Shown here piece after piece: positions 3,982 to 21,999 of a DNA stretch of 28,581 nucleotides. The notes beneath the pieces were generated by a model. That model made no database searches and was not told the DNA's origin. It saw nothing but the letters and a program-made list of their open reading frames with translations. This stretch comes from Bdellovibrio sp. (GTDB lineage: Bacteria; Myxococcota; SpSt-1050), in NCBI GenBank assembly GCA_020725805.1, contig DYEF01000037.1:1-28581 (forward strand). Direction: 5' to 3'. The position numbers and the translations under genes were made by a program. Numbering within the stretch: position 1 is the stretch's first letter; every line of letters starts with the position of its first letter.

Positions 3982-5268
3982 ATGGATAATAATCCGGATA
4001 ATGATTGCAGGGTAATTTTCATTTCTGTATTTCTGGCACTTCTTATCGCCGGCTGTGAAGTCGGTTACCGGTTGGACACAGGGAATGTAAATTCTGACGT
4101 TTTAGTATATGAGGATATTGATGAAGCATCAGAGACTGGTTCCGGGACAGATACCTCCGGAGATGCAAGCGACATACATATTGATAGAAATACAAAGAGC
4201 GGAAATTATTATGCTGAGGTAACTCTTCATTCTTCAGATGGCAATGAAACCCTGATAACGCCGGTCTCAATACCGGTAATCTTTCCGGAGGGGAGAGATT
4301 CAGGCAAACCTGTTTACTTTTATCAGACGTCTTTCTGCACAGGTGTACTCCAATATGAAAAATATGTGCTTGATGAGAATTTATATGCCCGGATAGATAT
4401 CGGATACGGGAAGGAATGTGACTTTTTCCTTCTGAACGGATATTTTCAGGGGGATATTATAAAAGGAGATTGCAGGTTTTATAAAAATGCCTGTCTCGGA
4501 GGAGCTGAGGAATATAAGGGAGAGATAGAACTGAAAAACAGAGGGGAGATTGAATATTCTCCGCAAATCTTTTTTGCAAAAAAATATCTGCACCCGTTTG
4601 ATATTCTCCATCTTCTCCCGAACTTCCCTGTGGATATGGATACCCTCAGACCTCAGATATTGATTGACGGGAAATCTGTACAGTTCAGGATAGAAGAATC
4701 GGATGGCATTAAAATTATTCCGGAAGAACCGCTCTGGTTCAACAGGGACTTAAAGGTATTGCTGGGTGATGTAAAGGATATCCTCGGGAAGAAATTCGAG
4801 ATTCCGGCTACATTAGTAAATATTAAATTTTACAACTATATTGAGGACCTCGAGTTTAATCTGCCTCTACCCAAGCATTCATACAGTATTGAGGAATACG
4901 GGAATAACCAGATAAAGGTTAAAGACAACTACCTCAGATTGATAGTAAATAATATTAGCTTTTCACAGGGGAAAGGGTATGCCTCGCTCTTCTTCGGGAA
5001 GAGGAGCGGAAATGCTGTCAGAATAAATATGAAATTCGAACCGAAAGACAGGACCCGCAATGTAAAGTGGTACATATTCAGTGACAGGAAAATCTATGGA
5101 CCGAATGAGTTTTCTCAAGATGGTGAGTTTCAGGATTATCTGATTCAGACAGATGGCGAGGACAACTACTACTTTCTCTTTGAATATGATACATTCCTCA
5201 ACTGTGCAAATGATAATTTTGATATCTTCGACTATCAGCTGGAGATAGACTATGTAAGATTTGAGTAG
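3982..5268 (+). CDS. Predicted lipoprotein, unknown function
   Basis: This 428-residue protein is predicted to be an exported lipoprotein. The N-terminus has a polar start, a hydrophobic core (VIFISVFLALLIAG) and a lipobox ending at C25, with Glu rather than Asp next. A Ser/Thr/Gly/Asp-rich spacer follows at about 40-75. Residues ~195-285 resemble a degenerate Ig-like domain of the kind in the downstream giant proteins (…VLLGDVKDILGKKFE). The last ~135 residues look like a beta-sandwich, possibly carbohydrate-binding, ending YQLEIDYVRFE; that is judged by pattern only. Four cysteines lie at about 110-175, perhaps as disulfides. It has its own promoter and a strong ribosome binding site. It is separated from the next operon by 172 bp, so it is probably a related but separately transcribed surface protein. 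No function can be named. Confidence 0.8.
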   Translation: MDNNPDNDCRVIFISVFLALLIAGCEVGYRLDTGNVNSDVLVYEDIDEASETGSGTDTSGDASDIHIDRNTKSGNYYAEVTLHSSDGNETLITPVSIPVIFPEGRDSGKPVYFYQTSFCTGVLQYEKYVLDENLYARIDIGYGKECDFFLLNGYFQGDIIKGDCRFYKNACLGGAEEYKGEIELKNRGEIEYSPQIFFAKKYLHPFDILHLLPNFPVDMDTLRPQILIDGKSVQFRIEESDGIKIIPEEPLWFNRDLKVLLGDVKDILGKKFEIPATLVNIKFYNYIEDLEFNLPLPKHSYSIEEYGNNQIKVKDNYLRLIVNNISFSQGKGYASLFFGKRSGNAVRINMKFEPKDRTRNVKWYIFSDRKIYGPNEFSQDGEFQDYLIQTDGEDNYYFLFEYDTFLNCANDNFDIFDYQLEIDYVRFE

Positions 5269-5440: not shown

Positions 5441-8400
5441 ATGCCTCTTAAGAAAGCCTTCCCTTTTATTTTATCTTCCCTTTTGCTTTTAATCAGTTGT
5501 GCAGATGAATATGTAGCTGTCGGTAAGGAGGATATGTCACCCCTTTATGTGACAAATACCGTTCCTGAAAACGGCGCTGCAGGTGTTGCAAGAGACCTTG
5601 CCCCTCTTGGTGCAGTGGTTATCAGTTTCAGCAAAAGCCTTGATGAAAAATTCGTAAACGAAGGATTCTTTGATTTTACCTGCAACGGTATCAGACCTGA
5701 ATCAAAGATTACTATCTCCGAAGATAAGAAGACTGTATCTTTCAAGCTGAAGCAGGGCGTTATATTGCCCGAGCGGGCATTCTGCAGGGTTGTTATCTCG
5801 AAGCTCATCCGTGATTCGGCGGGACTGCCTTTCTATCTCTCGGAAAACAGCGTATCGGCTTCATTGATTGATATCGATGGTGGCACAGTGACCGATACAT
5901 CACAGGATTCATCGCAGAATACTTATCAGGACAAGAGGACCGGTGAGGGAGATTATATACTGGAATTTACAACTTTATTTGAACCACTGAAGATTACATC
6001 GGTTTCACCAGAAGATAGGGCAAAGATTCCGGCAGATGCATTTTCATCATTTCAGGGGATTCTCATAAAATTCAACAAGAGTCTCGACGAAGAGAGTGTG
6101 AACATCTCCAATTTTATTATTCCGGGAGAACCTTATGAACTGATGCTATCCGAAGATAAGAAAGATGTTACCATAAAACTTGCGGAAGGCCTTAAGGAGG
6201 GCAGAACATATAATCTGACCGTTATGCCTTTTGTGAGCGATGAATCGGGTATCCTTCTGGGAGAGACCTACAGTTTTTCGTTCGAGACAGAACTGATCAG
6301 ACCGGAAGTCACTTTAATCGACCCGTCTGACGGAGTAATGAATGCGGATTATAAATTAAAGAGTATCCGAATCGAGTTTAATAAGGATATTAATCCGGCA
6401 TCGGTTAATGAAAATACGGTTGTGCTCACAAATGTTGAGAAGTACAGTGTCAGGTATGAAAATAAAGTTGCCTATATCGAGGATTTTCTTTTAAAAGAGA
6501 ACAGGGATTATACAGTAATAGTTTCGTCTCAGATAGAGGATATTTCCGGATTTACTCTTGAAAAGACATATTACTCAAATTTCAGGACGACGTTTGATAC
6601 ACCTTTTGTAAAGACCATTTTCCCCTCTTTAGGTGCAAAGAATGTGCCGTCAAATCTTCAGAGTATCGATATCGAATTTTCCGAGGATATGGATTTCGGG
6701 AATATCGATGCTCCTATGTTTCTGATAAGGCCGGAAATCCGGTTTTCAGTAGCTGTTACGGACAGTAAAACGGTTAAACTGATGCTCAAAGAGCCACTTC
6801 TCTCTGGTAATTCGTACAATATAACAGTGAAAAGCTATCTTACGGATCTGTCCGGTATAAAAATGGATAAGGATTTTGAGTCGGACTTTACAGTAAGTTT
6901 ACTTCCGGATAATAATCCCCCGTCCGACGTCGTGATTTATTCAAAAGATATTACTGAACCAAAGGATGATAGGAGGAGAGGATTTATTATTGAATGGAAG
7001 GCACCTGCATCGGATATTGTTGATGGGAAACTTACAGGAAAAGTTAAAGGTTATACACTTGTATATGCTGAGACACCATTTGATAAGACTGAGTTTTCCA
7101 ATATGACAGAGCTTGCGAATATCCCTACACCTTCTAATCCGGGAGATATTCAGAATATCACCCTTTATTCGCTGATAGATAAGGAGAATAACGAGAAGCC
7201 GATTATCTATAATAAACCATACTACTTTATGCTCAGGGCGACTGACGGGACAAATTTTGTCTATTCGAATCTTTTATCTGCGGGGATACTTGCCGAAAGA
7301 GCCAGAGTCCATCAGGGAACCAAATACTCAGGCCTTTCAATGAAATATATTTCAAACTTCGATAAAAAGGATGTTTTTGCAATCGGAGATACCGATGATT
7401 CTCAGAACGGAAAGGTTGTGGGCTCTGTCGGCATTTATAAGCTTGCAGATGGGAGTTTGAAGGAACTTTTCAGGATATACGGCAAATCAGAGAATTCACT
7501 CTTCGGATATCAGGTCGAATCTGCTGATTTCGATAATGATGGTTGTCAGGACCTCATAGTCTCGGCGCCGCTGGACGGGACCGGGAGAGAAGGGGCGATA
7601 TATATCTATGCTCAGTCAAAGAACGGGTCGGACTGTCTCTTTACTCCGGCAGAACCGGTTAGGATAAGCGGCGGGACAAAAGATTCTATGTTCGGACTTT
7701 CATTGCATAAATTTGTTATGAATCAGAAGGAGCATCTCCTTGTCGGTGCCCCTGCATACGGAGATTTGAATACAGGTGCAGCATTTATCTATATGAACAG
7801 AGATAACATCTCGGAGGTTCCGCAGAGCGGAGACAGGATTATTTCGGGAAAAGTCAGTGGCTCTTCTTTCGGTTACAGCATCTTTACTGACGACCTGAAT
7901 CAGGACGGCTGTGTGGATATAATTATTTCATCTCCTGATGCGTTGACAAAGAGCAGGGGGAGTGTATATGTCCTGTATTCGTCCTCGTCAGTTTCCGGTT
8001 GTCTGATTCAGAATACTGACATAAGCAATGCCAGTCTGAAAATAGACGGAGTTAATGATTATGAAAGGCTCGGATATAATCTTCTGACAAACGACCTCAA
8101 CGGGGACTCTCTGCCTGAACTTATTATGAGCGGCAGAGATGAACAGAATAACAGTGGACTTATCCTGATCAGAAACGGCAAAAATGGGGATATCCTGCAA
8201 ATAAAGGGTGAAGCAGGAGGAAATTTCGGATTTTATCTGAAGGGAGCATCTGATTTCAGAAAGGACGGATGCAAAGGTGGAACAAATGATAAGTGCAGAG
8301 ACCTCTTTGTATCTGACGAAAAGTTGTCAAAAGTATATCTTCTGGAAGGGAGAGAGGATATCTCAGGCTATACTCTCAGTGACCTTATTCCGTTTACTGA

Positions 8401-8533
8401 CAAAAGCAATCCTGCCTCGTTTGGATATACATTCACAATCTTTACGGAAACCACCTATGAAAACATACTTATTGCTGCCCCGTTTGTAAGGAGTTTCGGC
8501 GATTATATTTCGGAATTCTATATATACAGATAA
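5441..8533 (+). CDS. Large lipoprotein: Ig-like (SbsA/Big_5) repeats plus FG-GAP propeller
   Basis: This 1030-residue predicted surface or periplasmic lipoprotein has a basic start and hydrophobic core with lipobox LLIS ending at C20. Four bacterial Ig-like domains of the SbsA/Big_5 type begin near residues 33, 182, 286 and 386, each opening with a P-x-[DEN]-G-type motif and an I-x-F-[SN]-K/E strand. A fibronectin-like segment (~490-620) contains KGYTLVYAETPF and PYYFMLRATDG. The C-terminal ~400 residues are FG-GAP/integrin-alpha-like beta-propeller blades with calcium loops DFDNDGCQD, DLNQDGCVD and DLNGDSLPE, each near F/L-G-Y/F motifs. Several calcium loops carry a cysteine right after DG, paired with another about 35 residues on. 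It is first in a three-gene operon, 12 bp before the barrel gene. A role in adhesion or surface architecture is inferred. No protease or sugar-active domain is seen. Confidence 0.9.
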   Translation: MPLKKAFPFILSSLLLLISCADEYVAVGKEDMSPLYVTNTVPENGAAGVARDLAPLGAVVISFSKSLDEKFVNEGFFDFTCNGIRPESKITISEDKKTVSFKLKQGVILPERAFCRVVISKLIRDSAGLPFYLSENSVSASLIDIDGGTVTDTSQDSSQNTYQDKRTGEGDYILEFTTLFEPLKITSVSPEDRAKIPADAFSSFQGILIKFNKSLDEESVNISNFIIPGEPYELMLSEDKKDVTIKLAEGLKEGRTYNLTVMPFVSDESGILLGETYSFSFETELIRPEVTLIDPSDGVMNADYKLKSIRIEFNKDINPASVNENTVVLTNVEKYSVRYENKVAYIEDFLLKENRDYTVIVSSQIEDISGFTLEKTYYSNFRTTFDTPFVKTIFPSLGAKNVPSNLQSIDIEFSEDMDFGNIDAPMFLIRPEIRFSVAVTDSKTVKLMLKEPLLSGNSYNITVKSYLTDLSGIKMDKDFESDFTVSLLPDNNPPSDVVIYSKDITEPKDDRRRGFIIEWKAPASDIVDGKLTGKVKGYTLVYAETPFDKTEFSNMTELANIPTPSNPGDIQNITLYSLIDKENNEKPIIYNKPYYFMLRATDGTNFVYSNLLSAGILAERARVHQGTKYSGLSMKYISNFDKKDVFAIGDTDDSQNGKVVGSVGIYKLADGSLKELFRIYGKSENSLFGYQVESADFDNDGCQDLIVSAPLDGTGREGAIYIYAQSKNGSDCLFTPAEPVRISGGTKDSMFGLSLHKFVMNQKEHLLVGAPAYGDLNTGAAFIYMNRDNISEVPQSGDRIISGKVSGSSFGYSIFTDDLNQDGCVDIIISSPDALTKSRGSVYVLYSSSSVSGCLIQNTDISNASLKIDGVNDYERLGYNLLTNDLNGDSLPELIMSGRDEQNNSGLILIRNGKNGDILQIKGEAGGNFGFYLKGASDFRKDGCKGGTNDKCRDLFVSDEKLSKVYLLEGREDISGYTLSDLIPFTDKSNPASFGYTFTIFTETTYENILIAAPFVRSFGDYISEFYIYR

Positions 8534-8537
8534 GGAG
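8532..8537 (+). promoter_or_regulatory. Ribosome binding site that selects ATG 8546
   Basis: AAGGAG at 8532-8537 lies 8 bp before ATG 8546 but only 2 bp before the in-frame TTG at 8540. The ATG is therefore the more likely start for the barrel protein. Confidence 0.7.
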
Positions 8538-8545
8538 TCTTGCCT

Positions 8546-9718
8546 ATGAGATTATTTAATTTAGTAGTCTTATTCTCTTTTTTCCTGTTCCCTGTGATAT
8601 TATCATCGCAGGAACTGAAAATTACGAGCAAACACTCTGACTTTTCAATTTCAGAGCAGGGAAAACCACAAAAGTATATTCACCTCAAATCCGATCAGGA
8701 CCTTGTAATAAATGTCAGAGGTCCGATGTATATCAACATAAAATTCAGGGCACTTGTAAGTGCGGAGAAGAAGGGTAGTGCTACATTTACACTTTCATAT
8801 TTAAGAGATGGTGCCTTCAGGTCAAATAATGAGTACACATTGAAACTCGAGCCCAAAAAACAGAACAGAAAGATTGATGTGATTACAGAAGGCGGGTATT
8901 GGGCAACTGAGCACAGATGGATCCAGATCAAGGTTCCCGATGGTGAACATATATACCAGATTCCGCGGCCCGCGGAGCTTCCTGAAGGACTTATTCTGAA
9001 AGTTTATAAGGCTGAGAAAGAAGATTCTGCAATACTGGCAAAACCGGAGGTCTCCGATATCCCGATTGCGCCGATACCTGTAAAAAAAGAGGAGAAAGTA
9101 ATTGTTGCTGAAAAAGTCAGTGACAAGAAACCTGTTATAACTGCTGAAAATAAGGAAGTATCCCATAAGAGACCTGCGGAAAAAACCAGATATTTCAGCG
9201 CTGCATTGAAGGCAAATGTACTCATCCCCACAAGCAGGGTAGATTCTACCTACGCATTATCCCTCGACCTCAAATATATCAGTCCGCTCTTAAATAACCG
9301 TCTGGCATTCGGTATAGAGGCAGGTTACTATCCTCTCTCGGGAAGCGGAAAGAATATGGACCCCCAGATCGGGCTCTTCGAGTATTCCTTCTCTATAACG
9401 AATATTCCGGTCTTCATAGGCGCGGAGTATCTCCTTCCTTTGAATGCTCTGCCTCTGGGAATATATGTAAACGGCGGGTATGCGATGGTCTTTTCGTATT
9501 CTACCTCGAAGGTCTTCGAAGGAGAGAGTTATACCGACGGCATTGCATATGGTTATTATCTCGGCTCCGGTGTTCAGATATCGCCGGGTTACGGATTTAT
9601 TATCTCTGAGTTGAGATATTCAAGTGCTTATCTGAAATATGATACGAAAGTGGATATCGGGGAGACAGGGAATGTGGGCGGGACTAATTTCTATATAGGT
9701 TACAAACTCGTTTTTTAA
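8546..9718 (+). CDS. Outer-membrane beta-barrel protein with novel N-terminal domain
   Basis: Starting at ATG 8546 gives 390 residues; an in-frame TTG at 8540 would add two but is too near the ribosome binding site. A signal peptide (hydrophobic 3-20, SSQ cleavage region) has no lipobox cysteine. Residues ~23-148 form a beta-rich domain I do not recognise. Residues ~150-215 are a Lys/Glu/Pro/Val-rich linker that could span the periplasm. Residues ~216-390 alternate hydrophobic and polar residues with many Tyr and Gly, typical of a small (about 8-strand) outer-membrane barrel, and end in YKLVF, the C-terminal phenylalanine signal for barrel insertion. No cysteines are seen in the mature part. 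It sits between two large lipoprotein genes (12 and 13 bp gaps), so it may anchor or export them; this is inferred. Confidence 0.8.
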   Translation: MRLFNLVVLFSFFLFPVILSSQELKITSKHSDFSISEQGKPQKYIHLKSDQDLVINVRGPMYINIKFRALVSAEKKGSATFTLSYLRDGAFRSNNEYTLKLEPKKQNRKIDVITEGGYWATEHRWIQIKVPDGEHIYQIPRPAELPEGLILKVYKAEKEDSAILAKPEVSDIPIAPIPVKKEEKVIVAEKVSDKKPVITAENKEVSHKRPAEKTRYFSAALKANVLIPTSRVDSTYALSLDLKYISPLLNNRLAFGIEAGYYPLSGSGKNMDPQIGLFEYSFSITNIPVFIGAEYLLPLNALPLGIYVNGGYAMVFSYSTSKVFEGESYTDGIAYGYYLGSGVQISPGYGFIISELRYSSAYLKYDTKVDIGETGNVGGTNFYIGYKLVF

Positions 9719-9731
9719 GGAGGAATAAGAT

Positions 9732-12700
9732 ATGAGAAAGTATTTTGGTATTTTGATTTTTCTGGTTTTTGCAATCCTTTCCTGCAGTGACCAGCCATTT
9801 GTAGTAGGTGTAGATTCTCCGTTAAGGGTTGTGTATATATCCCCCACGGACTCTGCTCTGAATGTATCAAGGGATGTAACGGTTAAGATAGTCTTTTCCG
9901 AAGAGGTTGCAGAGAGCACACTATCAGAGAATGTAGTCCTTTATGACTATTCAAAAAAGGACGAGAGTATAAAGGTGGAGACTGACCTCACATATTCAAA
10001 AGAGACAAATACAGTCTCTCTCAAACCTAAAAAGAGCCTGAATTTTGCCACGCAATACCTTATCAGGGTAAAGTCGGGTCTGACCAAGGTGGATACGAAG
10101 GACTCCAAAGGCGGCAAGCTGTCAAGAGAGATAAGCGCGGTCTTTACAACGGAGTACATCGATGACCTGAAGGTAATTTCTGTATATCCTGCAAACGGTG
10201 CAACCGGTGTCTCTCCGGATGCAAGTATTGTGGTTACCTTCTCTGAGGCGATTGACAATACACCGCCCAGTTTCGACCAGACCTCTTCATTTGTAGTATG
10301 TGATACAGGAACGGCTGACTCTTATAAAGACGGTAAATGCAATACCCCGATTGCCGGCAACTGGACTTTCGACGAAAAGAAGCTGGTTGCTACATTCAGG
10401 CCGGAAGTAAGTTTCGGATATACAAGGTCTGTTAAACTTATTCTCTCAACTGCAATCCGTTCACAGAGGGCGAAGGACTTCGGAGACAAGGTTGGAAGCA
10501 CATACTACGGACATCTGAAGGCAGATTATACCGTTGATTTTATGACAAAGCTTTTAGACAGATTCGATGTCCTCTCTGTTTCACCGGCAAACGGCTCGAA
10601 TGGTGTCGGACTTGATTCACAGATAGTTATTAAATTCTCAGAGGCGGCCAATCCCGAATCTGTGATTTTTTACAATAAAAAGGGAGATGAGACATCTCTC
10701 AAGGATACAGCCACACTTTTTGTAGAGGATATAACAGATAACAAAAATGTAACGTCGTATTTTGTAAAAGGCGAGTGGGATTCGTCAAACAGGATTCTGA
10801 CTCTTACAAATATTGACCCGGAAGACGGTGAGACCAAAAGGGATTTCCCCTATTCGAGAAATATTAGAATTACGCTCAGCCCGAAGATCCAGTCCGTGAG
10901 AGGTAAGGCCCTTGTAAATCCGCCGGACGGGCTGAAGGCATCTCAGGGATTTCTCAATAACGGTGAGAGCGATTTCGTCTCCGCTTTTTCGACTATTGAC
11001 CCCCCCGAACTCCTGATCGTAAACAAAATACCGGATTCGGGTACAAAGAATGTATCAATCAGAAGTGATGTCAGGATTACATTCTCGGATGCCGTGAATA
11101 TTGCAACATTGGTCTATCCGCAGAGTATTGATTCGAAGGACTACACCTTCCGGATGACAGATATAACGGATATCGACAATCCTGTACTTGTCGAACCCTC
11201 TGACAGTGCAAACCCGTTCAGGATAAATTCCCAAACCCCCAATACGGTTATATTCGTACCGAAGTATCCTCTTGACTATCTGCATACATACCAGATCGAG
11301 ATTAAGGAGGGGATCGCAAGTGAGAGGGCTACGGATAAAAGTGGTTTCTTAAAGATTCCGCTTGTTTATAATTTTACAACAGAGGGTGTGGAGAAGTTTT
11401 TCATTACCTCTGTTAATCCGGAGGATGGCAGCGAAAATAATGGTATCTATTCGAAGACAAGGGTGAGATTCAACAGATCATTCAGAACGGATTCGCTGAA
11501 GACATTGGTATCGGGTGGAAATGTTACTGAGGTAAGCGGCAGGAGTATAACTGACAATAACGGGTCTTTTCTGCCTGAATCATTAAAAGGATATATAGTC
11601 AGATTTTCCGGTAATAACCTTTCGTGTTCCGGTTTTATCGTGAATAATACCGATAAATCTTTTGAGCTCTCGGAAAATCCGTCCTGTGGTGTCGACAATA
11701 CATTTACCTATGAAATCATTAAGCCCGCTCTGTTATTATCTAACTCATCCTCATATATAGAACCGGTGAGCACGGATGAACCGTTATTTTATTACAAGTC
11801 ATATCTCGCGTCCGGATTTGTAAGCAGCTCTGCGAGTCAGACGGTTACCGATAGTCAGAAATCTTTTGGTGCGGATGAACTAAAGGGTAAGGTGCTGAGG
11901 TTTGTCAGAGGAAAGCTAGCAGGTGAGAATTATCCAATTGAGTCGAATACTGCCGATACAATTACGATTAGCGGTCAGTTCCCGGACCTGCCTGATACTA
12001 CTTCGGAGTATATCATTGTAGAAAGTTCAGAGATAATGAAGAGCCTTATTACCTCATCTGACAGAAGGAGTGTCAGAATAGAAGGGTCTGATTTCGGTAT
12101 TGACGAACTTAAAGGACTCGAACTCTATGTCTTGGACGGGACAGGGAAGGGACAGGTCAGGGGAATTATCGCCAATGACAAAGATACAGTATTTGTTGAT
12201 GAAGACTTTGAGACGGCACTGGACAGCACCAGTCAGATTGCTGTAAGGGATGCAAGGGAGTTCATATTTGTCCCCAAAAATACCTTAGCATATAACTCGC
12301 TGATTAACGGAAAGGTTACGGATACAGTAAGAGGGTCAATCTCCGATTCACTCAATAATAAAACAGAAGAACTGAACTTTTCGTTTGGTATCATCAAGGC
12401 ACCCGAACTCGTAATTAAATCGGTTTCGCCATCAGATAAGGCAGATAATATCGACACAGAAGTTACGATAAAGGTCTTCTTCTCTGAATCAGTAGACCCC
12501 GCCTCAGTGAAAAAGGAATCCGGAAATATTCTTCTTCTTGACAGCAGCGCAAATCCGGTCGATTTCACTATTCTTCCCGTCGGGACTGAGACAGATAATA
12601 TCGAGATAATTCCTGTCAGAACCGCACTGAACCAGCCAAGACTTAAGTATTCTGAGCAATACTCGCTTACTCTTAAATCACAGATTACATCAGTAAGGGG

Positions 12701-15700
12701 CGGAGCGCTCGGAAGAGATTATTCGTTTACTTTCAAGACGATTGACCCGCCACCACTTGCAGTTCTGTATTCAGAACCATCGAATGCAGAGGGTAAAATT
12801 ACGACAGGTATCAAGCGAGAGACCCAGCAAAACAGCGGCATACCTACCTCTTTTGTAATTGCCTTCTCCGAAGGTTTGAAACAGGCGAATATAGATGCAA
12901 CATCCCTGATACTGGAGAATGTAAGCAATCTTGCAAATCCCTTCGATATTTCTCAGGCAGGGACGCCGATATTATATAGCACTCAATTTAATTCATCTGA
13001 TACCCCGCCAGATGGTTCACTGGGTAGGGGAGAGGATAATATCCTGACAATTACACCCTCTGACCTGATCGATTATTCTGCCGTTGTCAGAATTGTGATA
13101 AAAGGTCAGGATGACCCGCAGGGGACTGATTGTGCATCTGTTTCTACTTGCAGGACATCCGGTATATTTACGAGTGACAGGGCTACTTACGAGGGTGGAC
13201 AACTCAGGAATACAAAGGTCATCGTCTTCAGAATGGAAGACCCCGAGCCTTTGAGAATTATTCAGGTAGCATCTGAGAAAGGGAATCAGTATCTCCGAAG
13301 AAATCTCAGCGGCAGTACCGAATCGGTTCTTGTCAGATTCACTGAAGGAGTAAAACAGAGTTCGTTTAGTCTCAATAAGACCGTCTTCTTAGAGGACGTC
13401 ACAGGTGTTGCAGACCCGGTAAACGGAAATGCATTAGCAGCAATACCGGCCTCTGTCTCATTCCTCGACAATCAGGGGAATATTGCTTCCGATGACCCGA
13501 CTACAACAGACCTGATCGGTAAGGATTCTGTCGCAAAGATTTCTCCAAGTAGTTTACTTGGCTATGCAACAGTCGTGAGATTGAGAATCAAAGGCGATAA
13601 TCCGCCTTCATTTTCGGGAGTCTATTCCGACAGGGCAACAATAATTAACGGACAATTGCCTCGCTGTACACCTCAGTCCGGATACAACTGCAACAATCAG
13701 GGTGAATATGTATATCTTTTCAGTGTTGAGAGTATCAAAGACCTGTATGTAAAATCAGTAACACCGGGAGACGGCTCGACAGGGATTCCTCAGGATGCTA
13801 AAGATATTTCTATAGTCTTTTCAGAGCCACTGGATTGCACATCAGTCAGTTCCGGCAGCGTCAGGGTAGAGCAGGTATATCCTTCGCTCTCAACTATTTC
13901 AGGAGTATTGAATTGTAATAGTGATATAGTAACCTTTACCGCAAATCAGGGTTTTGGATACAGCAAGGATATAAGAGTCACTATCTCAACCGGTGTCAGA
14001 AGTTATGAGGCCCAGTTTGTAAATCCTGCAGCAGACCCGCTAATGGGACATATAAGGACATCATTTGTCTCTACTTTCTCAACCGAGGACCCGCCGGCTC
14101 CCTATATAGTCAGTATGAACCCCGGCCCCATATCCACGAATGTAGCCAGAGATTCTGAGGTCATTGTGACTTTTAATGAGGCACTAAATCCATCATCGGT
14201 TAATACTGCAAACTTCAGTATAACCGACCTTTCCTCGATGAGTATAATTACCTGCGCTACACTAGAGCTTATCAATTCCAATACAACTATCAGATGTGTA
14301 CCTGCCTCATTCTTTGCATATTCGCACAGTATCGCTGTTTCAATAAGAGGCGGCGCAACTGGAATCAGAAGTGCGATAGCAACGGAGAGAGGAGGGTGGT
14401 TTAATCCTGTTCCGAATCCGTACACTTACACATTCAGCATTATTGATATCCCTGTACTTACTGTACTTGCTACCAATTTCTCCGGAACTGAAAACTTTGC
14501 ACCGAATGCCAATCTCCAGATTATCTTCAGCAGCTATGTTAATTTTACGGATGTCGTTGGGAATCCGGCTGATATCGCAGATGATAAAATCATACTTGTA
14601 AAACAGTCCGATATAAATACCCGCATACCTGTTACAATCACGAATCCTGTAGCGGGCAGTGCAGGTTCTCCGTCTACTATAAGGATTACACCGACGGCAT
14701 CGCTTGACTATTCAACACAATATTCGGTCTTTGTCTTTGGTGGTTATCCTTCCGGTGTGTGCAGGCCCGAGAGAGACGGAACGAACAATGGAGGTTGCAT
14801 AGTTGACGAGGTAATATCGGGTACTCCGTATAATGGTCTCAGATTCGATTTTGCAGTCGCGAGTGCCCCGGGTCTTATGGTCGAATCTGTTGTGCCGCAG
14901 GATGAAGCAACAGGAATAGACAGAAAGCCCGAAATCAGAATAACTTTCAATAATCCGATTCAGTTTGGAACTGTAAGCGGGAATATATGTCTTACAAAGG
15001 GAGATAATCAATCTACCAACTGCTCCGGTCCCCTCGCGATTCCTCTCGACCCGTTTACTCAGATCGATTCAAGGACTGTATCAACCTATCCGTCAGGTGA
15101 GCTCGATTTCGATACTACATATACGATAGTTGTAACAAAAGGCGTAATAGATATATACGGAGATTCTCTCGATTCGTACTATACTTCGGTCTTTACAACT
15201 ATTACCTCCACACTCGTGCAGGATATTACAGTATGGGACGGGACACAGTATTCAAATTATATGTTCTATGACATCAACGATGCATACTTCAGAATCAGAT
15301 TTACAAAGGATATGGATACAACCACACTGAACAACGGAACCATCTATCTGACATACAGAGACGAGTTTGGCAGAATTGTTCCGCTCAGAGGGAATCTTGT
15401 ATGGGAGGTCGCTCCGAACGATAAGCGAATTTTGTATTTTACCCCTGATATCTACAATATTTCTGTGTGTGACGGAGGTGAGATATACGGATGGGGGAAT
15501 GACGGAAAGGTCAGCAATACAGCACCTGACCAGTTTACATCCTCATCGTATAATTTTGATGCGACATTTATCGGCAAAAAATTATATATCTCAGGCTCTG
15601 TAAACGGTTATAATGGTTATTATAATATAACAAATGTCAGTTCAGGAGCACTGGTTCTTGAAAATGCGTCATTCACTATTGCTGAGAGCGGGCTCGAATT

Positions 15701-18161
15701 CAGGATATTCAGCCCATCATCTTCAATTCCGTATAACACACCCGTATTCATTCACCTCACAACGAACATTGTCAGCGCGGACCATACAGAGAATATTTCA
15801 CCTTCTTCAGGTGACAGTGAACTGATAAAGGAATTCAGATCCGGTTCGGATGCAAGACTCAATTCGATTGTGTACTCCAATTCTATAATGCGTGGCACTA
15901 ATGAGTATTTCTTTGTCTACGATACTAATCTCTTTGATGCAAAGGATGTTCCTGTTACATCGAAGTTCAAGGCAAGATTCTCAGAGGCGCTCGACCCATC
16001 GTCAGTAGATTACAGGTCAGTCATTCTCTCTGACCTCAGAGGTGAAGACGGCTCGGTTACAGCAGGCAGTAATATATTCAAGATAACTACTTCGTCATTT
16101 AAGTCTTCTGATGTTGGCAAATATATCTGGATTATGCTGAGAGACAAAATCGATGGTCCCTACGAGATAACAGCATTTATCGATGCTAATAATGTAAGGC
16201 TGGACGATTCTTTTGCAACGTCGCTTGACAATCTGCCATTCATCAAGGGGCTCAATGCGACTGCGGCCGGTGTAATTACTCTTGCAGATTCGAACAAGAC
16301 CATAGTATTTGACTCTTCGAAACTCGGTACGCTCGAGTACAGCAGGGATTACTCGCTGATACTGATGGGAAAGACCAGCAGAAGTTATGCAAATATAGTA
16401 AAAGCAGCAAACGGGAATTATATCAAGGGTATAATCTCTGCCGGATTTACAACATCTCAAGAGACGACTGTCGAATTCAATCCTGTAGATTATACAACAA
16501 CAAGTGAAATCAATGACCCGATGCTCTTTGTGGCGATGTTCTCGAGACCTATTGATATCTCGACCGTCGACGAGGAGTCATTCTATGTTATTCAGGTAGG
16601 ACAGAAACTGCCGGCACTCTTTGCGCATTACCCTGAATTCCCCAATATTGTTACAATGATACCAATACCGGCATTCAGGACCGGAACTACAGCAGATTTT
16701 ACGGTAAATCAGAATGTCAGAGATTACAGAGGGAATCCGCTTGGGAAGGTCTGGACGAGCTCTCTCACTGTTGCATCGGCACCCGGAGGTGCGGCCCTTA
16801 CACTTGAAAATCCGAATTCAGTTACACCTTCAAGCGGTTCGGTAGTGAGCCCTGACCTCAAGGTTTCACTCAAATGGGCATCGGCTGGTGGCAACTTCAG
16901 GGACCTCCTGCTTCCGACATCTTTTAACAATTACTCAATCAAACTCAGAAATAATGCTGATTCGACATACGTTTCGGTCACTACCCAGCTGATACCGGGT
17001 GGCAGCAGCGGAGACACAATTATTATAAAACCTGTTTCGAATCTCAGAGGTGGTACTTCATATACACTTACAGTTGACCTTACGAAGTGCGCAAACCTCT
17101 ACAGACTGCCCGGAGGTGCGACACTTACATACACTTACACGGTCGAGAATAATCCGCCTCAGGTTCTGGCTGCAGGTCCCACAGGTTCAGGCAATTCTGC
17201 ACTCTCAAAAATCTGGATAGCCTTTAATGAGCAGATAGATATTGCATCGGTGAGCACATCTACGGTTATTCTGCAGAATCTCGATACAATGAATACGATA
17301 TCCGGCAGATATTCACAGAAGTATGATAATACGACATCCAGATGGGTTGTATACTTTGAGCCATCGGTCCCGCTCAGAAACTCACTTGCAGGGTACAGGG
17401 TTACGGTAAAATCGGGTAACAGCGGAGTTAAGGACCTCGGAGGAACGCCTCTTGCTGCAGATTATACCTATACATTCGGCGTCGACAATATTGCTCCACA
17501 GGTAATCTCTGTAAATCCTCCGAACGGAACCTCGAATGTGTCTGTCAGCTCCGGTATATCTGTTACATTTAATGAGGCAATTTCTCCCTCGTCGGTATTC
17601 GGGGCAACAGAATCCTCAAACGGTTCTGTTAACATAATCTATAATTCAGCCTGCGGAACAAATAAACAGTCCTATGCCTGTATAAGACTCTCGACAAATA
17701 TGTCTGTAATCAATATCATTCCGGCCGAGCCATACAGACTGGTGGGTAACCGTAACTACAGTGTCGATCTGAACGAGACCGTCATATCCGACCTTGCAGG
17801 TAATGTGATGAATTTCCTTGACCTTCCACCTGTTTCGACATTCTCTACTGTCAACGACCTCCCTGTCCTTGATTGTGAGATGGCTCCGGCTGCTCCAAAC
17901 AATCCGATAATGCTCTTCTTCAATGAGACTGTGGACTATTCCGCTGTCAACTCTGTGATTGTCTACAGGATTGATACCGGAAGTGCCATTGCGGTAGACC
18001 TGATGGGTGTATCCAACCCGAGCGGATATGTGGTGACGGTCTTCCCGCAGGCGGGGAACTGGACGAGCGGTGATTACGGATACATTGTGACCAGAAATAT
18101 CAAAGACCTGAACGGTAATCAGCTCATCAGGGAATACAACGGGTATTTCACAATCCCGTAG
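9732..18161 (+). CDS. Giant multi-domain lipoprotein with ~19 Ig-like domains
   Basis: This 2809-residue protein starts after AAGGAGGA (9717-9724). Its lipoprotein signal peptide ends ILS-C18, followed by SDQPF. I count about 19 SbsA/Big_5-type Ig-like domains, beginning near residues 30, 146, 277, 427, 556, 893, 1009, 1174, 1338, 1457, 1576, 1715, 1830, 2042, 2247, 2353, 2476, 2589 and 2710. Typical openings are SVSPANGSNGV and SVNPPNGTSNV, then a FSE/FNE strand. Domain ends often read F-S-T-x-D-P-P. Five copies of a different ~70-residue module lie within or between these domains. Most cysteines fall in close local pairs, suggesting disulfides outside the cytoplasm. It ends flush with the last Ig domain, with no LPXTG, autotransporter or T9SS-type tail, so attachment is presumably by the lipid. 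It is last in the operon, before a strong terminator. A stalk or adhesin role is inferred. Confidence 0.92.
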   Translation: MRKYFGILIFLVFAILSCSDQPFVVGVDSPLRVVYISPTDSALNVSRDVTVKIVFSEEVAESTLSENVVLYDYSKKDESIKVETDLTYSKETNTVSLKPKKSLNFATQYLIRVKSGLTKVDTKDSKGGKLSREISAVFTTEYIDDLKVISVYPANGATGVSPDASIVVTFSEAIDNTPPSFDQTSSFVVCDTGTADSYKDGKCNTPIAGNWTFDEKKLVATFRPEVSFGYTRSVKLILSTAIRSQRAKDFGDKVGSTYYGHLKADYTVDFMTKLLDRFDVLSVSPANGSNGVGLDSQIVIKFSEAANPESVIFYNKKGDETSLKDTATLFVEDITDNKNVTSYFVKGEWDSSNRILTLTNIDPEDGETKRDFPYSRNIRITLSPKIQSVRGKALVNPPDGLKASQGFLNNGESDFVSAFSTIDPPELLIVNKIPDSGTKNVSIRSDVRITFSDAVNIATLVYPQSIDSKDYTFRMTDITDIDNPVLVEPSDSANPFRINSQTPNTVIFVPKYPLDYLHTYQIEIKEGIASERATDKSGFLKIPLVYNFTTEGVEKFFITSVNPEDGSENNGIYSKTRVRFNRSFRTDSLKTLVSGGNVTEVSGRSITDNNGSFLPESLKGYIVRFSGNNLSCSGFIVNNTDKSFELSENPSCGVDNTFTYEIIKPALLLSNSSSYIEPVSTDEPLFYYKSYLASGFVSSSASQTVTDSQKSFGADELKGKVLRFVRGKLAGENYPIESNTADTITISGQFPDLPDTTSEYIIVESSEIMKSLITSSDRRSVRIEGSDFGIDELKGLELYVLDGTGKGQVRGIIANDKDTVFVDEDFETALDSTSQIAVRDAREFIFVPKNTLAYNSLINGKVTDTVRGSISDSLNNKTEELNFSFGIIKAPELVIKSVSPSDKADNIDTEVTIKVFFSESVDPASVKKESGNILLLDSSANPVDFTILPVGTETDNIEIIPVRTALNQPRLKYSEQYSLTLKSQITSVRGGALGRDYSFTFKTIDPPPLAVLYSEPSNAEGKITTGIKRETQQNSGIPTSFVIAFSEGLKQANIDATSLILENVSNLANPFDISQAGTPILYSTQFNSSDTPPDGSLGRGEDNILTITPSDLIDYSAVVRIVIKGQDDPQGTDCASVSTCRTSGIFTSDRATYEGGQLRNTKVIVFRMEDPEPLRIIQVASEKGNQYLRRNLSGSTESVLVRFTEGVKQSSFSLNKTVFLEDVTGVADPVNGNALAAIPASVSFLDNQGNIASDDPTTTDLIGKDSVAKISPSSLLGYATVVRLRIKGDNPPSFSGVYSDRATIINGQLPRCTPQSGYNCNNQGEYVYLFSVESIKDLYVKSVTPGDGSTGIPQDAKDISIVFSEPLDCTSVSSGSVRVEQVYPSLSTISGVLNCNSDIVTFTANQGFGYSKDIRVTISTGVRSYEAQFVNPAADPLMGHIRTSFVSTFSTEDPPAPYIVSMNPGPISTNVARDSEVIVTFNEALNPSSVNTANFSITDLSSMSIITCATLELINSNTTIRCVPASFFAYSHSIAVSIRGGATGIRSAIATERGGWFNPVPNPYTYTFSIIDIPVLTVLATNFSGTENFAPNANLQIIFSSYVNFTDVVGNPADIADDKIILVKQSDINTRIPVTITNPVAGSAGSPSTIRITPTASLDYSTQYSVFVFGGYPSGVCRPERDGTNNGGCIVDEVISGTPYNGLRFDFAVASAPGLMVESVVPQDEATGIDRKPEIRITFNNPIQFGTVSGNICLTKGDNQSTNCSGPLAIPLDPFTQIDSRTVSTYPSGELDFDTTYTIVVTKGVIDIYGDSLDSYYTSVFTTITSTLVQDITVWDGTQYSNYMFYDINDAYFRIRFTKDMDTTTLNNGTIYLTYRDEFGRIVPLRGNLVWEVAPNDKRILYFTPDIYNISVCDGGEIYGWGNDGKVSNTAPDQFTSSSYNFDATFIGKKLYISGSVNGYNGYYNITNVSSGALVLENASFTIAESGLEFRIFSPSSSIPYNTPVFIHLTTNIVSADHTENISPSSGDSELIKEFRSGSDARLNSIVYSNSIMRGTNEYFFVYDTNLFDAKDVPVTSKFKARFSEALDPSSVDYRSVILSDLRGEDGSVTAGSNIFKITTSSFKSSDVGKYIWIMLRDKIDGPYEITAFIDANNVRLDDSFATSLDNLPFIKGLNATAAGVITLADSNKTIVFDSSKLGTLEYSRDYSLILMGKTSRSYANIVKAANGNYIKGIISAGFTTSQETTVEFNPVDYTTTSEINDPMLFVAMFSRPIDISTVDEESFYVIQVGQKLPALFAHYPEFPNIVTMIPIPAFRTGTTADFTVNQNVRDYRGNPLGKVWTSSLTVASAPGGAALTLENPNSVTPSSGSVVSPDLKVSLKWASAGGNFRDLLLPTSFNNYSIKLRNNADSTYVSVTTQLIPGGSSGDTIIIKPVSNLRGGTSYTLTVDLTKCANLYRLPGGATLTYTYTVENNPPQVLAAGPTGSGNSALSKIWIAFNEQIDIASVSTSTVILQNLDTMNTISGRYSQKYDNTTSRWVVYFEPSVPLRNSLAGYRVTVKSGNSGVKDLGGTPLAADYTYTFGVDNIAPQVISVNPPNGTSNVSVSSGISVTFNEAISPSSVFGATESSNGSVNIIYNSACGTNKQSYACIRLSTNMSVINIIPAEPYRLVGNRNYSVDLNETVISDLAGNVMNFLDLPPVSTFSTVNDLPVLDCEMAPAAPNNPIMLFFNETVDYSAVNSVIVYRIDTGSAIAVDLMGVSNPSGYVVTVFPQAGNWTSGDYGYIVTRNIKDLNGNQLIREYNGYFTIP
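11514..12254 (+). repeat. Three consecutive non-Ig modules (A, B, C) inside the giant lipoprotein
   Basis: Module A covers 11514-11726, B 11811-12029 and C 12030-12254 (residues 595-665, 694-766, 767-841). They share a core: F-x-x-[DE]-x-L-K-G (FLPESLKG, FGADELKG, FGIDELKG), then a strand, then an I-x-x-N turn (VNNTDKSF, ESNTADTI, IANDKDTV). They interrupt the Ig-like domain that starts at residue 556. The copies are diverged in DNA, so this is a protein-level repeat rather than a recent duplication. Confidence 0.7.
15477..15716 (+). repeat. Non-Ig module D inside the giant lipoprotein
   Basis: Residues 1916-1995 contain FDATFIGKKLYISG, NGYYNITNVSSG and LVLENASF, matching the F-x4-[LFV]-x-G-K … Y-x-I-x-x … hydrophobic strand pattern of modules A-C. 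It follows an Ig-like strand (ILYFTPDIYNI), and Ig-like sequence resumes after it (SIPYNTPVFIHL), so it looks like a loop insertion. Confidence 0.6.
16041..16250 (+). repeat. Non-Ig module E inside the giant lipoprotein
   Basis: Residues 2104-2173 contain FKSSDVGKYIWIM, GPYEITAFIDANN and VRLDDSF, the same module pattern. The host Ig domain begins SKFKARFSEALDPSSV and resumes with TIVFDSSKLGTLEYSRDYSL, so the module is inserted between its strands. Confidence 0.6.
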
Positions 18162-18265: not shown

Positions 18266-18274
18266 CTTTTGCAG

Positions 18275-19561
18275 ATGCCAAAATCAGACCCGATTATAGA
18301 AAGACTTAAAATCCTTGCTCAGGGTGCAAGGTTTGATGCCTCCTGTGCCTCTGATCAGGGAGGCGGACTTACCTTTAATCAGAGAAGAAAGGATGTCTCG
18401 AGATATATCTATCACAGCTGGACGGAAAACGGCAGATGTGTTCCTATATTAAAAGTCCTTCTCACAAATTACTGTATCTATGACTGTGCCTATTGTCACA
18501 ACAGGAGGTCTAATGATATCGAGAGAAGCTCATTTGCCCCCGAAGAACTTGCGTCGGTTACGTTTGAACTCTACAAAAAGGGAAAGATAGAAGGGCTCTT
18601 TTTAAGCTCCGGTGTGATAAAAAGCTCTGATTACACTATGGAGATGATGCTGAGGACGCTCGAACTTCTGAGAAAGACATACGAATTTAAGGGATATATC
18701 CACTGCAAGATTCTGCCGGCAACCGATGAGCTGCTTATAGAGAGAATAGGGAGACTCTCTGACAGGATATCCGTAAATATAGAATTGCCTTCTGAGGAGT
18801 CACTGAAATATCTTGCTCCCGAAAAAGACAGAGATAAAATAATCAGACCGGTTATCAGGATTGCAGAACTTATCAGGAAATACAACGATGAAAACAGGAG
18901 ATTCGGTTCAACACTTAGGTTCTCCCCTTCAGGGCAGAGTACACAGATAATTGTCGGGGCAACGAATGATACAGACCTAAAAATGCTTCTTTTATCAGAC
19001 TATCTTTATAAGAAACTGAATATGTCGAGGGTGTACTATTCTGCCTATGTCCCTGTAAATCAGGATAAGAGACTTCCGAGAATCAGTGAGCCTCCTCTGA
19101 GAAGAGAACACAGGTTATATCAGGCTGACTGGCTGATTAGGGATTACGGATTTGATATTTTGGAGATTGTCAACGAAGAGAGGCCGGATTTATATGTTGA
19201 GCTCGACCCGAAGACGGTCTGGGCGCTCGAGAATATCTGCAGATTTCCGGTCGAGATAAATCGGGCTGAATATGAGGAACTCATTCGCATACCCGGTGTA
19301 GGGAAGAGAACAGCTAAAAAGATAATTTCGTTAAGAAAGGCGCATTCTATTACAGAAGAAGATATAAAAAGATTAAGATTGCCATTAAAGAAAATGCGTC
19401 ACTTTATTACAATAGGCGGAAGATATAAAGGAGAGAAGCTGGACAGTCTGTATATAAAAGAGAGGTTGCTGGGGGTAAAGGGCTACAGACAGTTGACATT
19501 TGGTTTTGACAAGGAAGATATTAAAGATAATATAATTGCAAGTAACACGGGAGAGTTCTGA
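18275..19561 (+). CDS. Radical SAM protein with helix-hairpin-helix (putative DNA modification/repair)
   Basis: Starting at ATG 18275 gives 428 residues. The radical SAM cluster motif is C67-x3-C71-x2-C74 in NYCIYDCAYCHNR, preceded by hydrophobic strand LKVLL. Downstream are a typical SAM-binding barrel region with FSPSGQSTQIIVGAT and a C-terminal helix-hairpin-helix, IPGVGKRTAKKI (339-350), a non-specific DNA-binding element. This layout and length match the family named putative DNA modification/repair radical SAM protein. In many genomes that family sits beside a uracil-DNA-glycosylase-like/DUF4130 partner, which is absent here. Its substrate is not established. It overlaps the DUF362 gene by one base, so the three genes to 21999 form one operon. 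The ferredoxin-like products could in principle supply electrons for radical generation, but they are predicted to be membrane-bound or exported. Confidence 0.88.
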   Translation: MPKSDPIIERLKILAQGARFDASCASDQGGGLTFNQRRKDVSRYIYHSWTENGRCVPILKVLLTNYCIYDCAYCHNRRSNDIERSSFAPEELASVTFELYKKGKIEGLFLSSGVIKSSDYTMEMMLRTLELLRKTYEFKGYIHCKILPATDELLIERIGRLSDRISVNIELPSEESLKYLAPEKDRDKIIRPVIRIAELIRKYNDENRRFGSTLRFSPSGQSTQIIVGATNDTDLKMLLLSDYLYKKLNMSRVYYSAYVPVNQDKRLPRISEPPLRREHRLYQADWLIRDYGFDILEIVNEERPDLYVELDPKTVWALENICRFPVEINRAEYEELIRIPGVGKRTAKKIISLRKAHSITEEDIKRLRLPLKKMRHFITIGGRYKGEKLDSLYIKERLLGVKGYRQLTFGFDKEDIKDNIIASNTGEF

Positions 19562-20457
19562 TGAGAAGAAGAGAGTTTATTAAAAAGTCTGCCATTCTTG
19601 CCGGAGGCATTGCATTTTCGGGTTCGATAGCTGATACACTCTTTGCGCAGGATAAGATTCCGGATTTAGTTGTTGTCAGGGGGAAAGATATTTTCAAAAT
19701 GGTAGATACAATGTTCAAATCCCTTGGCGGGATCGATTCGTTTATTAAAAAAGGAGATACAGTTGTAATAAAGCCGAATATTGGCTGGGACAGAAAGCCC
19801 GAGTATGCGGCAAATACAAACCCCATTCTTGTCGGTGCATTGGTCAGGGCCTGCAGAGATGCCGGCGCAAAGAGAGTAAAGGTGTTTGACTATACAGTCA
19901 ACAATCCTCAGAAGTGTTATAAAAATAGTGGTATAAAGGATGAGGCAGAGAAATACGGGGCGGAGGTGAGTTATATCGATGAAAACAGATTCAGGGATGT
20001 GATTATCAAGGGTAAAGTTATAAAATCCTGGCCGGTCTACAGAGATGTTATCGAGGCGGATAAATTTATCAATGTGCCGGTAGCCAAGACACACGGGATA
20101 GCAAGACTGACTTTAGGTATCAAGAATCTTATGGGCATAATCGGGGGTTCAAGGAGGAAGTTTCATCAGGATATCGACCAGTCCCTCGTTGACCTGCTGA
20201 CTGCTGTAAGACCGACACTGACTGTGCTGGACGCGATAAGGGTACTGACCAATAACGGTCCTACGGGAGGGGATCTGGAAGACGTCAGGAGACTTGATAC
20301 AATAGTTGCCGGAAGGGACATTGTAGCAGTTGACGCCTACGGCTGCTCTTTCTTTCAGGTCATTCCAGCCGATATCGGCTATATCCATCTTGCACACAAA
20401 TCAGGACTTGGCAGAGAGGATATTGAAAATCTGAATATAAAAAAGATAGAGTTATAA
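19561..20457 (+). CDS. Tat-exported DUF362 domain protein
   Basis: This 298-residue protein begins with a twin-arginine signal (RRREFIKKS, hydrophobic 11-21, likely cleavage near A29), so it is probably folded before export to the periplasm. Residues ~35-290 match the DUF362 family, with VVIKPNIGWDRK, NVPVAKTHGIARLTLGIKN, LMGIIGG and a C-terminal DIVAVDAYG. The 4Fe-4S ferredoxin tail that some DUF362 proteins carry is missing; the following gene supplies many such clusters. The function of DUF362 is not known, though it is frequently next to ferredoxin-like genes. Its start overlaps the radical SAM stop by one base (TGATG), with GGGAGAG at 19549-19555 as the ribosome binding site. Only 3 bp separate it from the next gene. 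Confidence 0.9.
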   Translation: MRRREFIKKSAILAGGIAFSGSIADTLFAQDKIPDLVVVRGKDIFKMVDTMFKSLGGIDSFIKKGDTVVIKPNIGWDRKPEYAANTNPILVGALVRACRDAGAKRVKVFDYTVNNPQKCYKNSGIKDEAEKYGAEVSYIDENRFRDVIIKGKVIKSWPVYRDVIEADKFINVPVAKTHGIARLTLGIKNLMGIIGGSRRKFHQDIDQSLVDLLTAVRPTLTVLDAIRVLTNNGPTGGDLEDVRRLDTIVAGRDIVAVDAYGCSFFQVIPADIGYIHLAHKSGLGREDIENLNIKKIEL

Positions 20458-20460
20458 TTT

Positions 20461-21999
20461 ATGAGAAGATACAGGATAATTACCCAGACAATCTTTCTGG
20501 TGCTCTTTCTCTTTTTATTTGTCTTTACAAAATCAGACGCAGAGAACGGAACTTTTGCGGATATATCAGTCGTTTTCTATATCGACCCCCTGATTTTACT
20601 GTCGAACCTTATCTCATATCATAATCTGAATATTTTGTTTTTATTCTCACTGATCACGGTTGCTCTTACTTTTGCGACCGGCAGGAGTTTCTGTGGCTGG
20701 GTCTGTCCGCTCGGTACACTGAATGATATCACAGGGAGACTGAAGAAGAGGGAGAAGGAACTTGTAAAGAAGGAGAATCTGAAAATTAAATATTATATTC
20801 TGATATTTCTTATAGTTCTCGCGGTATTTGGTGTAAATCTTGCGGGTTTTCTTGACCCGCTCTCACTTCTTGTAAGGTCATTTACAATAATATTTTATCC
20901 TTTGTTCAATCTGCTTATTCACTCGGTTTATGATATTTTCGTTGCTATAGCACCAAACTCCGAATCTCTTCCCAATATCTATTCATTCCTCAGGACATAT
21001 CTTATCGAAAATCACAGGGTATACTTCTCTCAGTCTATATTTATCGGTGCACTCTTCCTGCTTGTATTATTTTCTAATCTTATATCGAAAAGATTCTGGT
21101 GCAGGTATATCTGTCCTCTCGGGGCATTACTCGGATTGATGGGGAGATATTCACTTCTCAAAAGGGAGATAAAACCCTGTAATGATTGTGGTATATGCGA
21201 AGTCAACTGCAATGGCGGGGCTGTTTCCCCAAAGACGGATAAAGAGAACGGCTCCGAATGTATTCTGTGTATGAACTGTTCCAGTCTTTGTCCCGAAGAG
21301 TCTGTAAATTTTGTCTTTTCAAAGAAACCGGCTAACAGGGGTATCGATATAGGGAAGAGGCAGCTCTTTATTTCTGCCGGCACGGCTGTAATATCATATC
21401 CGCTCTTTAAGTCGTCCCTTTCTGCCTCACCGAATTTTCACAATCCTCTGCTCATCCGTCCGCCGGGCTCGGTTAGAGAAGATTTGTTTGTCAAAAAGTG
21501 CATCAAGTGCGGAGCCTGTTTGAAGGTCTGTATTACGAACGGACTGCAGCCGACCCTATTTGAGGCCGGGCTGGAGGGTATGTGGACGCCTCATCTCGTC
21601 CCGAGGGTAGGGCATTGTGAATACAACTGCAATCTCTGCTCTACAGTCTGTCCGACCGGCGCTATAAGGCCTATTACTATCAGTGAGAAGGTAAAGACAA
21701 AGATCGGGACCGCCCATATCAATAAGAACAGGTGTATTGTCTACAAGGAGGGAAAAGGCTGCCTTGTCTGCGAAGAGGTCTGCCCCGTGCCGGAAAAAGC
21801 GATTAAGATAGAAAATATTCAGGTGCAGATAAATAACAATATCAGGAATCTGAAGGCGCCGCGCGTGGTTTCGTCACTCTGTATCGGCTGTGGCATTTGT
21901 GAAAAGAACTGCCCTGTTGTGGATTCGCCTGCAATATATGTGACCTCTGTCGGAGAGAAGAGGTCGGAAGAGAATCAGGAACTTTTAGAGCAGATATAA
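20461..21999 (+). CDS. Membrane polyferredoxin, NapH-like plus NapG/MauM-like
   Basis: This 512-residue protein has an N-terminal membrane half with about five helices (near 7-23, 57-74, 110-130, 138-160, 190-208). Two cytoplasm-facing C-x3-CP motifs (FCGWVCPLG, 78-85; WCRYICPLG, 213-221) are the hallmark of NapH/NosR-type quinol-to-ferredoxin proteins. Two 4Fe-4S motifs follow (C240-C250, C267-C277). A KRQLFISAG hydrophobic stretch (299-315), resembling a Tat signal, leads to a second half with four more clusters (C347-C357, C386-C397, C425-C441, C474-C484) in the order of NapG/MauM proteins. The whole resembles a natural NapH-NapG fusion for electron transfer between the quinone pool and a periplasmic partner, perhaps the DUF362 protein. 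It overlaps the convergent hypF by 25 bp. Confidence 0.88.
   Translation: MRRYRIITQTIFLVLFLFLFVFTKSDAENGTFADISVVFYIDPLILLSNLISYHNLNILFLFSLITVALTFATGRSFCGWVCPLGTLNDITGRLKKREKELVKKENLKIKYYILIFLIVLAVFGVNLAGFLDPLSLLVRSFTIIFYPLFNLLIHSVYDIFVAIAPNSESLPNIYSFLRTYLIENHRVYFSQSIFIGALFLLVLFSNLISKRFWCRYICPLGALLGLMGRYSLLKREIKPCNDCGICEVNCNGGAVSPKTDKENGSECILCMNCSSLCPEESVNFVFSKKPANRGIDIGKRQLFISAGTAVISYPLFKSSLSASPNFHNPLLIRPPGSVREDLFVKKCIKCGACLKVCITNGLQPTLFEAGLEGMWTPHLVPRVGHCEYNCNLCSTVCPTGAIRPITISEKVKTKIGTAHINKNRCIVYKEGKGCLVCEEVCPVPEKAIKIENIQVQINNNIRNLKAPRVVSSLCIGCGICEKNCPVVDSPAIYVTSVGEKRSEENQELLEQI

Follow-up and report, generated by a model that had tools for sequence, protein, structure and literature searches.

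A giant Ig-repeat lipoprotein that probably bears five loop-insertion barrels of the phage tail-hub type

Loop-inserted barrels have already been described singly in phage proteins. Lambda gpJ carries an extra domain inserted between two HDIV strands (PMC10721106), which has been called OB (PMC11101478), and the tailspike LKA1 gp49 has a six-stranded insertion barrel (PMC5701251), which corresponds to residues 283-370. In the iron-sulphur domain of gpL/GTA hubs, four cysteines coordinate a 4Fe-4S cluster around a domain that forms part of the tail-tip architecture in phage hubs (PMC10721106). Carbohydrate-binding modules are also carried in loops by the evolved Dit proteins of phage adhesion devices (PMC7291167).

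The window analysed herein, a whole stretch of 28,581 nucleotides from Bdellovibrio sp. (GCA_020725805.1, contig DYEF01000037.1), encodes a giant Ig-repeat lipoprotein together with two companion proteins, as listed below.

9732..18161, + strand: giant Big_5 (SbsA-type Ig) lipoprotein, an open frame of 2809 aa
9732..9785, + strand: its signal peptide, ending in a lipobox-like cysteine (residue 18), MRKYFGILIFLVFAILSC
5441..8533, + strand: companion lipoprotein of 1030 aa with four Big_5 domains and FG-GAP propeller repeats (Pfam)
8540..9718, + strand: companion protein of 392 aa with a signal peptide and a putative C-terminal outer-membrane beta-barrel ending in F

The giant protein matched the Pfam model of Big_5 (PF13205) in 15 stretches with 434.9 bits (whole-protein E 9.8e-133), above the curated cut-off of 23.6 bits. 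Its signal-peptide cysteine has a counterpart at the same place in a related species (..LVIAAC), and the protein is presumably lipid-anchored. The 392-aa companion, for which no Pfam match was obtained, resembles an outer-membrane barrel protein, the barrel itself being a predicted one. The three genes (5441-18161) are separated by 6 and 13 bases, and their order is kept in a congeneric second species; there, the companion lipoprotein is retained beside the giant gene with 58.6% identity and the 392-aa protein with 67.8%. The same ribosome-binding site precedes the giant gene in both species. Farther upstream in the window, an ECF-type sigma factor gene adjoins a zinc-finger anti-sigma-like gene (1638-2992), followed by a SAM hydroxide adenosyltransferase gene (2989-3777), and a 428-aa lipoprotein with a clear lipobox (3982-5268) gave no Pfam or NCBIfam match. 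On the downstream side (18269-21999) lies a Radical-SAM rSAM_link_UDG protein (TIGR03916), whose name implies a uracil-DNA-glycosylase-like partner; the proteins encoded after it are instead a DUF362 protein and a NapH/NapG-like fused ferredoxin. In genome G001, the opposite strand has, upstream of the lipoprotein cluster, three genes resembling these in size, a comparison of size only.

A first-pass annotation of this DNA had pointed to five segments of ~70 residues in the giant protein as copies of a second, unrelated module. Segments of this kind were located near the residues it had given, and are listed below with their profile scores.

11508..11732, + strand: module A, variant 1, residues 593-667 (phage-only profile, 19.1 bits)
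11802..12026, + strand: module B, variant 1, the most canonical copy, residues 691-765 (phage-only profile, 58.0 bits)
12033..12257, + strand: module C, variant 1, in tandem with B, residues 768-842 (phage-only profile, 38.0 bits)
15492..15719, + strand: module D, variant 2, the weakest by sequence, residues 1921-1996 (variant-2 profile, 9.1 bits)
16041..16253, + strand: module E, variant 2, residues 2104-2174 (variant-2 profile, 20.1 bits)

The similarity of the segments within the giant protein alone was not above chance. Leave-one-out profiles gave 21.5 bits for B and weak scores for A, C, and E (2-5.5 bits), and missed D. Sets of segments drawn at random from the giant protein, itself repetitive, did as well in 5 of 40 trials, such profiles thus not being discriminating in a repeat protein. 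A first scan of the genome contigs with the A-C region found no relative; a search with the same region recovered the orthologue and also unrelated proteins from other genomes of the phylum, in which a clearer motif was seen (SGTGAGQxRxIxSNTxTxLTVxxxWxxxPDxTSxY). The alignment of those proteins led to 232 viral stretches (one pattern), and 80 loci were kept. From 54 phage modules, a phage-only profile was built without any sequence from the window or its relatives, and 1000 shuffles of each segment served as the control, the criterion being that a segment outscore every shuffle under a profile containing no window sequence.

The phage-only profile scored A, B, and C above their shuffle maxima of 7.7, 5.4, and 9.8 bits, respectively, and these three were its sole positive matches on the whole giant protein; D and E went undetected by it. 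A profile of the second variant, whose sources were a cytochrome, Burkholderia phage BcepMigl, and IMG/VR contigs and whose motif was GTVSVxxGxxxVTGxGTxWxxxxxG..IxF....YxIxSVxSxTxLTL, scored E at 20.1 bits against a best shuffle of 10.7 and B at 11.1 against 8.4, whereas D, at 9.1 bits, fell below its shuffle maximum of 10.1 and within the top 1%. By hhalign, E matched the variant-2 alignment at 76%, and the two variants aligned to each other over 70 columns with 85% probability. A, B, C, and E accordingly exceeded all of their 1000 shuffles, and D was significant at the 1% level only. Since the phage-only profile picks A-C and the variant-2 profile picks E and marginally D, the five segments are, as far as profile matching can assign them, two sequence variants of one superfamily and not five equal copies, with D the least certain member. 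The proposal of five related segments therefore stood in the sense of a common superfamily, but had to be divided into two variants, with D marginal. Neither D as a query nor a written variant-2 consensus found a match among phages. Scans of the window protein or the modules against Pfam, NCBIfam, and PHROG gave no clear module family, with PHROG 32881 (E 9e-4 for module E), 32649, and 778 as weak leads, and when the module profiles were run against PDB sequences, nothing convincing emerged, some of the hits being KOW-like fragments with E values of 0.35 and above.

Modules B and D were modelled with AlphaFold2 as isolated modules outside their host, the input alignment of D containing variant-2 rows. 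The models showed the same order of six strands, with pLDDT values of 95 and 91.6, respectively. In the VIA comparison, the best solved match of B was the RcGTA tail hub (6tba, residues 167-250; Z 10.2, rmsd 2.4 over 77 residues), followed by the hubs of phage Chi (8vjh, Z 8.8) and JBD30 (8rk3, Z 8.4). All of these top three matches are tail hubs aligned over the Phage_BR0599 domain, and unrelated ubiquitin E1 barrels scored about 7.3. The structural matches of D (Z 7.3 and below, including 7.2 for lambda gpJ 492-566) equal the level of those unrelated barrels and may reflect a common arrangement only.

With the Pfam model of Phage_BR0599 itself (PF09356, curated cut-off 22.9 bits), no match was found in the whole giant protein at E 0.1 or in single B, C, D, and E at E 10. 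Matches below the cut-off were obtained on module relatives, namely a phage protein (L080, 2.3e-4) and a bacterial multihaem cytochrome (L056, 8.9e-4). When profiles were compared by hhalign, variant 1 aligned with the Phage_BR0599 domain of aligned tail hubs over 74 columns at 77%, whereas the hub N-terminal domain, used as a control, gave 0.2-0.5%; the iterated variant-2 set reached 28%. Both the same fold and a colinear profile were found for the superfamily comparison, and as the best explanation of the whole, the modules probably share a fold superfamily with Phage_BR0599, the C-terminal domain of GTA-type tail hubs. The likeness to phage structural proteins that the annotation had noted is real, as indicated by the matches of the phage-only profile and the tail-hub matches of the predicted B fold.

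The relation of the modules to the surrounding Ig domains was assessed with the Big_5 profile, which delimited two split host domains.

11382..12407, + strand: single Big_5 domain split by A and B+C, residues 551-892 (Big_5 profile)
15894..16466, + strand: Big_5 domain split by E, residues 2055-2245 (Big_5 profile)

In the former, the profile matched a piece preceding A and then, colinearly, one following C, and the removal of A and B+C gave one continuous match over most of the model with 17.9 bits, a value that random cuts of equal size reached in 6 of 150 trials. In the latter, the flanks of E matched with 15.4 and 7.3 bits and merged upon its removal into one match of 31.6 bits, which random cuts reached in 9 of 150 trials. 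Given these random-cut frequencies, the evidence from module removal is moderate by itself. When the E host was aligned with other Big_5 domains of the window, a clean gap was left at E, although fragments of modules were wrongly placed on Ig strands by the aligner. These profile matches showed A, B+C, and E to lie inside predicted single Big_5 domains, B and C sitting in tandem in one loop, and at least four of the five modules are nested in Ig-domain loops. For D, five boundaries were tried, and its removal restored no Big_5 match. The suggestion that D and E are each flanked by the strands of one Ig domain was therefore upheld for E, and extended to A and B+C, but found no support for D, whose host Ig domain was not recovered.

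The giant protein of the related species, whose contig ends after 1963 residues of it, aligned over 1957 residues without a gap at 72.8% identity, and retains modules A-C (60-71% identity) and the start of D. Modules A and C are conserved below the protein average in this two-species comparison. The ungapped alignment with A-C at such identities indicates that the modules are old and have been kept.

As the annotation had anticipated, the modules recur in other large surface proteins, and cytochromes as well as LamG, DUF11, and LVIVD proteins were found among the hosts. In a LamG-repeat protein from a Paceibacterota bin (L191), the GTLT/PTWT loop is filled in two repeats, with module copies at protein residues 413-488 and 937-1007, and empty in two. 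Homologous multihaem cytochromes share an inter-haem slot that is occupied by variant 1 in one protein and by variant 2 in another. Further carriers are MtrC/OmcA-like proteins and one protein from a Pacearchaeota bin, and those of phages include relatives of the central tail fibre J, phrog_376 tail proteins, a tail fibre, and a virion protein. The giant gene was the sole carrier detected in its own genome. We put at about even the chance that these sequences belong to a mobile, uncatalogued superfamily (the hub-type insertion barrel, including Phage_BR0599) that moves as a loop cassette across phages, bacteria, and archaea, and would constitute a general plug-in decoration of unrelated extracellular scaffolds, including Ig lipoproteins, LamG proteins, and MtrC/OmcA-like cytochromes. 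Several individual carriers are unusual in themselves: two very large multihaem cytochromes (L063 from G061, and L170) hold both variants between their haem motifs, and a 1201-aa protein with no Pfam match (L068, G174:C702) consists largely of eight diverged module copies. Several copies also occur at 265-2892 of L151 in Pseudanabaena phage Pam2, in a "flagellar hook-length control protein", an annotation that looks wrong.

On the whole, the giant protein is probably a long, lipid-anchored surface or outer-membrane Big_5 protein that bears five ~75-residue, six-stranded loop-insertion barrels of the hub-type superfamily. In such a protein, the Big_5 Ig array would act as a stalk or fibre, a loop could take up a barrel module with the host fold left intact, and the barrels might serve as side decorations touching glycans, the cell wall, or partner proteins. 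Such contacts have been proposed for the inserted barrels and carbohydrate-binding modules of phage adhesion devices, and by analogy with their loop-borne binding modules, decoration would be the most likely role. Its main rival, which we regard as a tentative possibility, holds that the modules have no ligand and serve the Ig array structurally, as spacers or stiffeners that set its bend, its spacing, or its resistance to proteases. The length of A-C is unchanged between the two species and the modules are not hypervariable (60-71% identity), and the hub counterpart domain belongs to a tail-tip architecture (PMC10721106), all of which would suit a spacer; however, only a few Ig domains are filled, and a common spacing is harder to see across the many unrelated hosts, including cytochromes and propellers.

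It appears unlikely that the modules are selfish or neutral insertions, that is, recombination debris of phage tail genes tolerated by loops. Relatives are indeed encoded by the 232 viral stretches (one pattern), filled and empty loops coexist in the LamG protein L191, and the giant gene stands alone in its genome as a detected carrier, but A-C and the start of D are kept with zero gaps in a second species at 27% protein divergence, and both the reading frame and the fold are maintained. A recent arrival, considered on the basis of deviating base composition, was not seen: the third-position G+C of the modules lies within about 1.3 s.d. of the gene, so that any arrival of the modules would be old. 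To regard the segments as ordinary Ig strands or linkers whose motif arose by coincidence would accord with a within-protein similarity no better than that of random segments of a repeat protein. This reading is nevertheless highly improbable, and the data on A, B, C, and E already contradict it, as profiles made without this protein pick these four well above 1000 shuffles, the predicted fold of B matches tail-hub barrels and not Ig sandwiches, and the Big_5 matches stop and then resume around A, B+C, and E. The initial view of the segments as a second module distinct from Ig strands was in this respect supported, through the external profiles for A, B, C, and E and the tail-hub barrel fold of B.

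Under the preferred reading of the modules as decorating barrels of hub type, a recurrent, unnamed segment of giant bacterial surface proteins becomes tied to a solved phage tail-tip fold. The filled and empty loops and the interchangeable variants in one slot offer direct cases of domain spread by loop insertion. With a family model, annotation would reach these positions, now blank, in many phage tail proteins and surface cytochromes, and the putative binding role would become testable. No description of an Ig lipoprotein with five barrels, or of this breadth of hosts, was found in the literature searched, and as far as Pfam, NCBIfam, PHROG, and that literature go, both the combination and a general module family are undescribed. 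The earlier claim of an undescribed architecture accordingly holds for these two, but not for single inserted barrels, which are known.

Compared with described systems, the giant lipoprotein with its 15 Big_5 stretches and the neighbouring lipoprotein with its four resemble the multi-Ig bacterial surface proteins of the Big_5 (PF13205) type, while the Big_5 model is without the loop-inserted barrels seen in the former. In GTA-type hubs (RcGTA gp13, phage Chi, JBD30), the six-stranded Phage_BR0599 barrel is colinear with the modules over the 74 aligned columns and lies between two cysteine-bearing stretches. The window modules differ in scoring below the Pfam cut-off and in being present as several copies in the lipoprotein, whereas the hub has one, and no cysteine quartet flanks them in the sequence, B and C having zero cysteines and A two inside. 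Among the singly inserted barrels, LKA1 gp49 (4ru4) gave VIA Z scores of 7.7 with B and 6.3 with D, a comparison of folds only in which values below 8 may denote a common arrangement, and the OB domain of lambda gpJ (8k35) gave 6.9 with B and 7.2 with D, likewise a fold comparison only and below the clear level of the tool. Both proteins carry the barrel in a loop of the host fold as do A, B+C, and E, although the hosts differ. The Dit proteins differ in modules and hosts alike, and their loop-nested binding modules may work in a manner similar to the barrels of the window.
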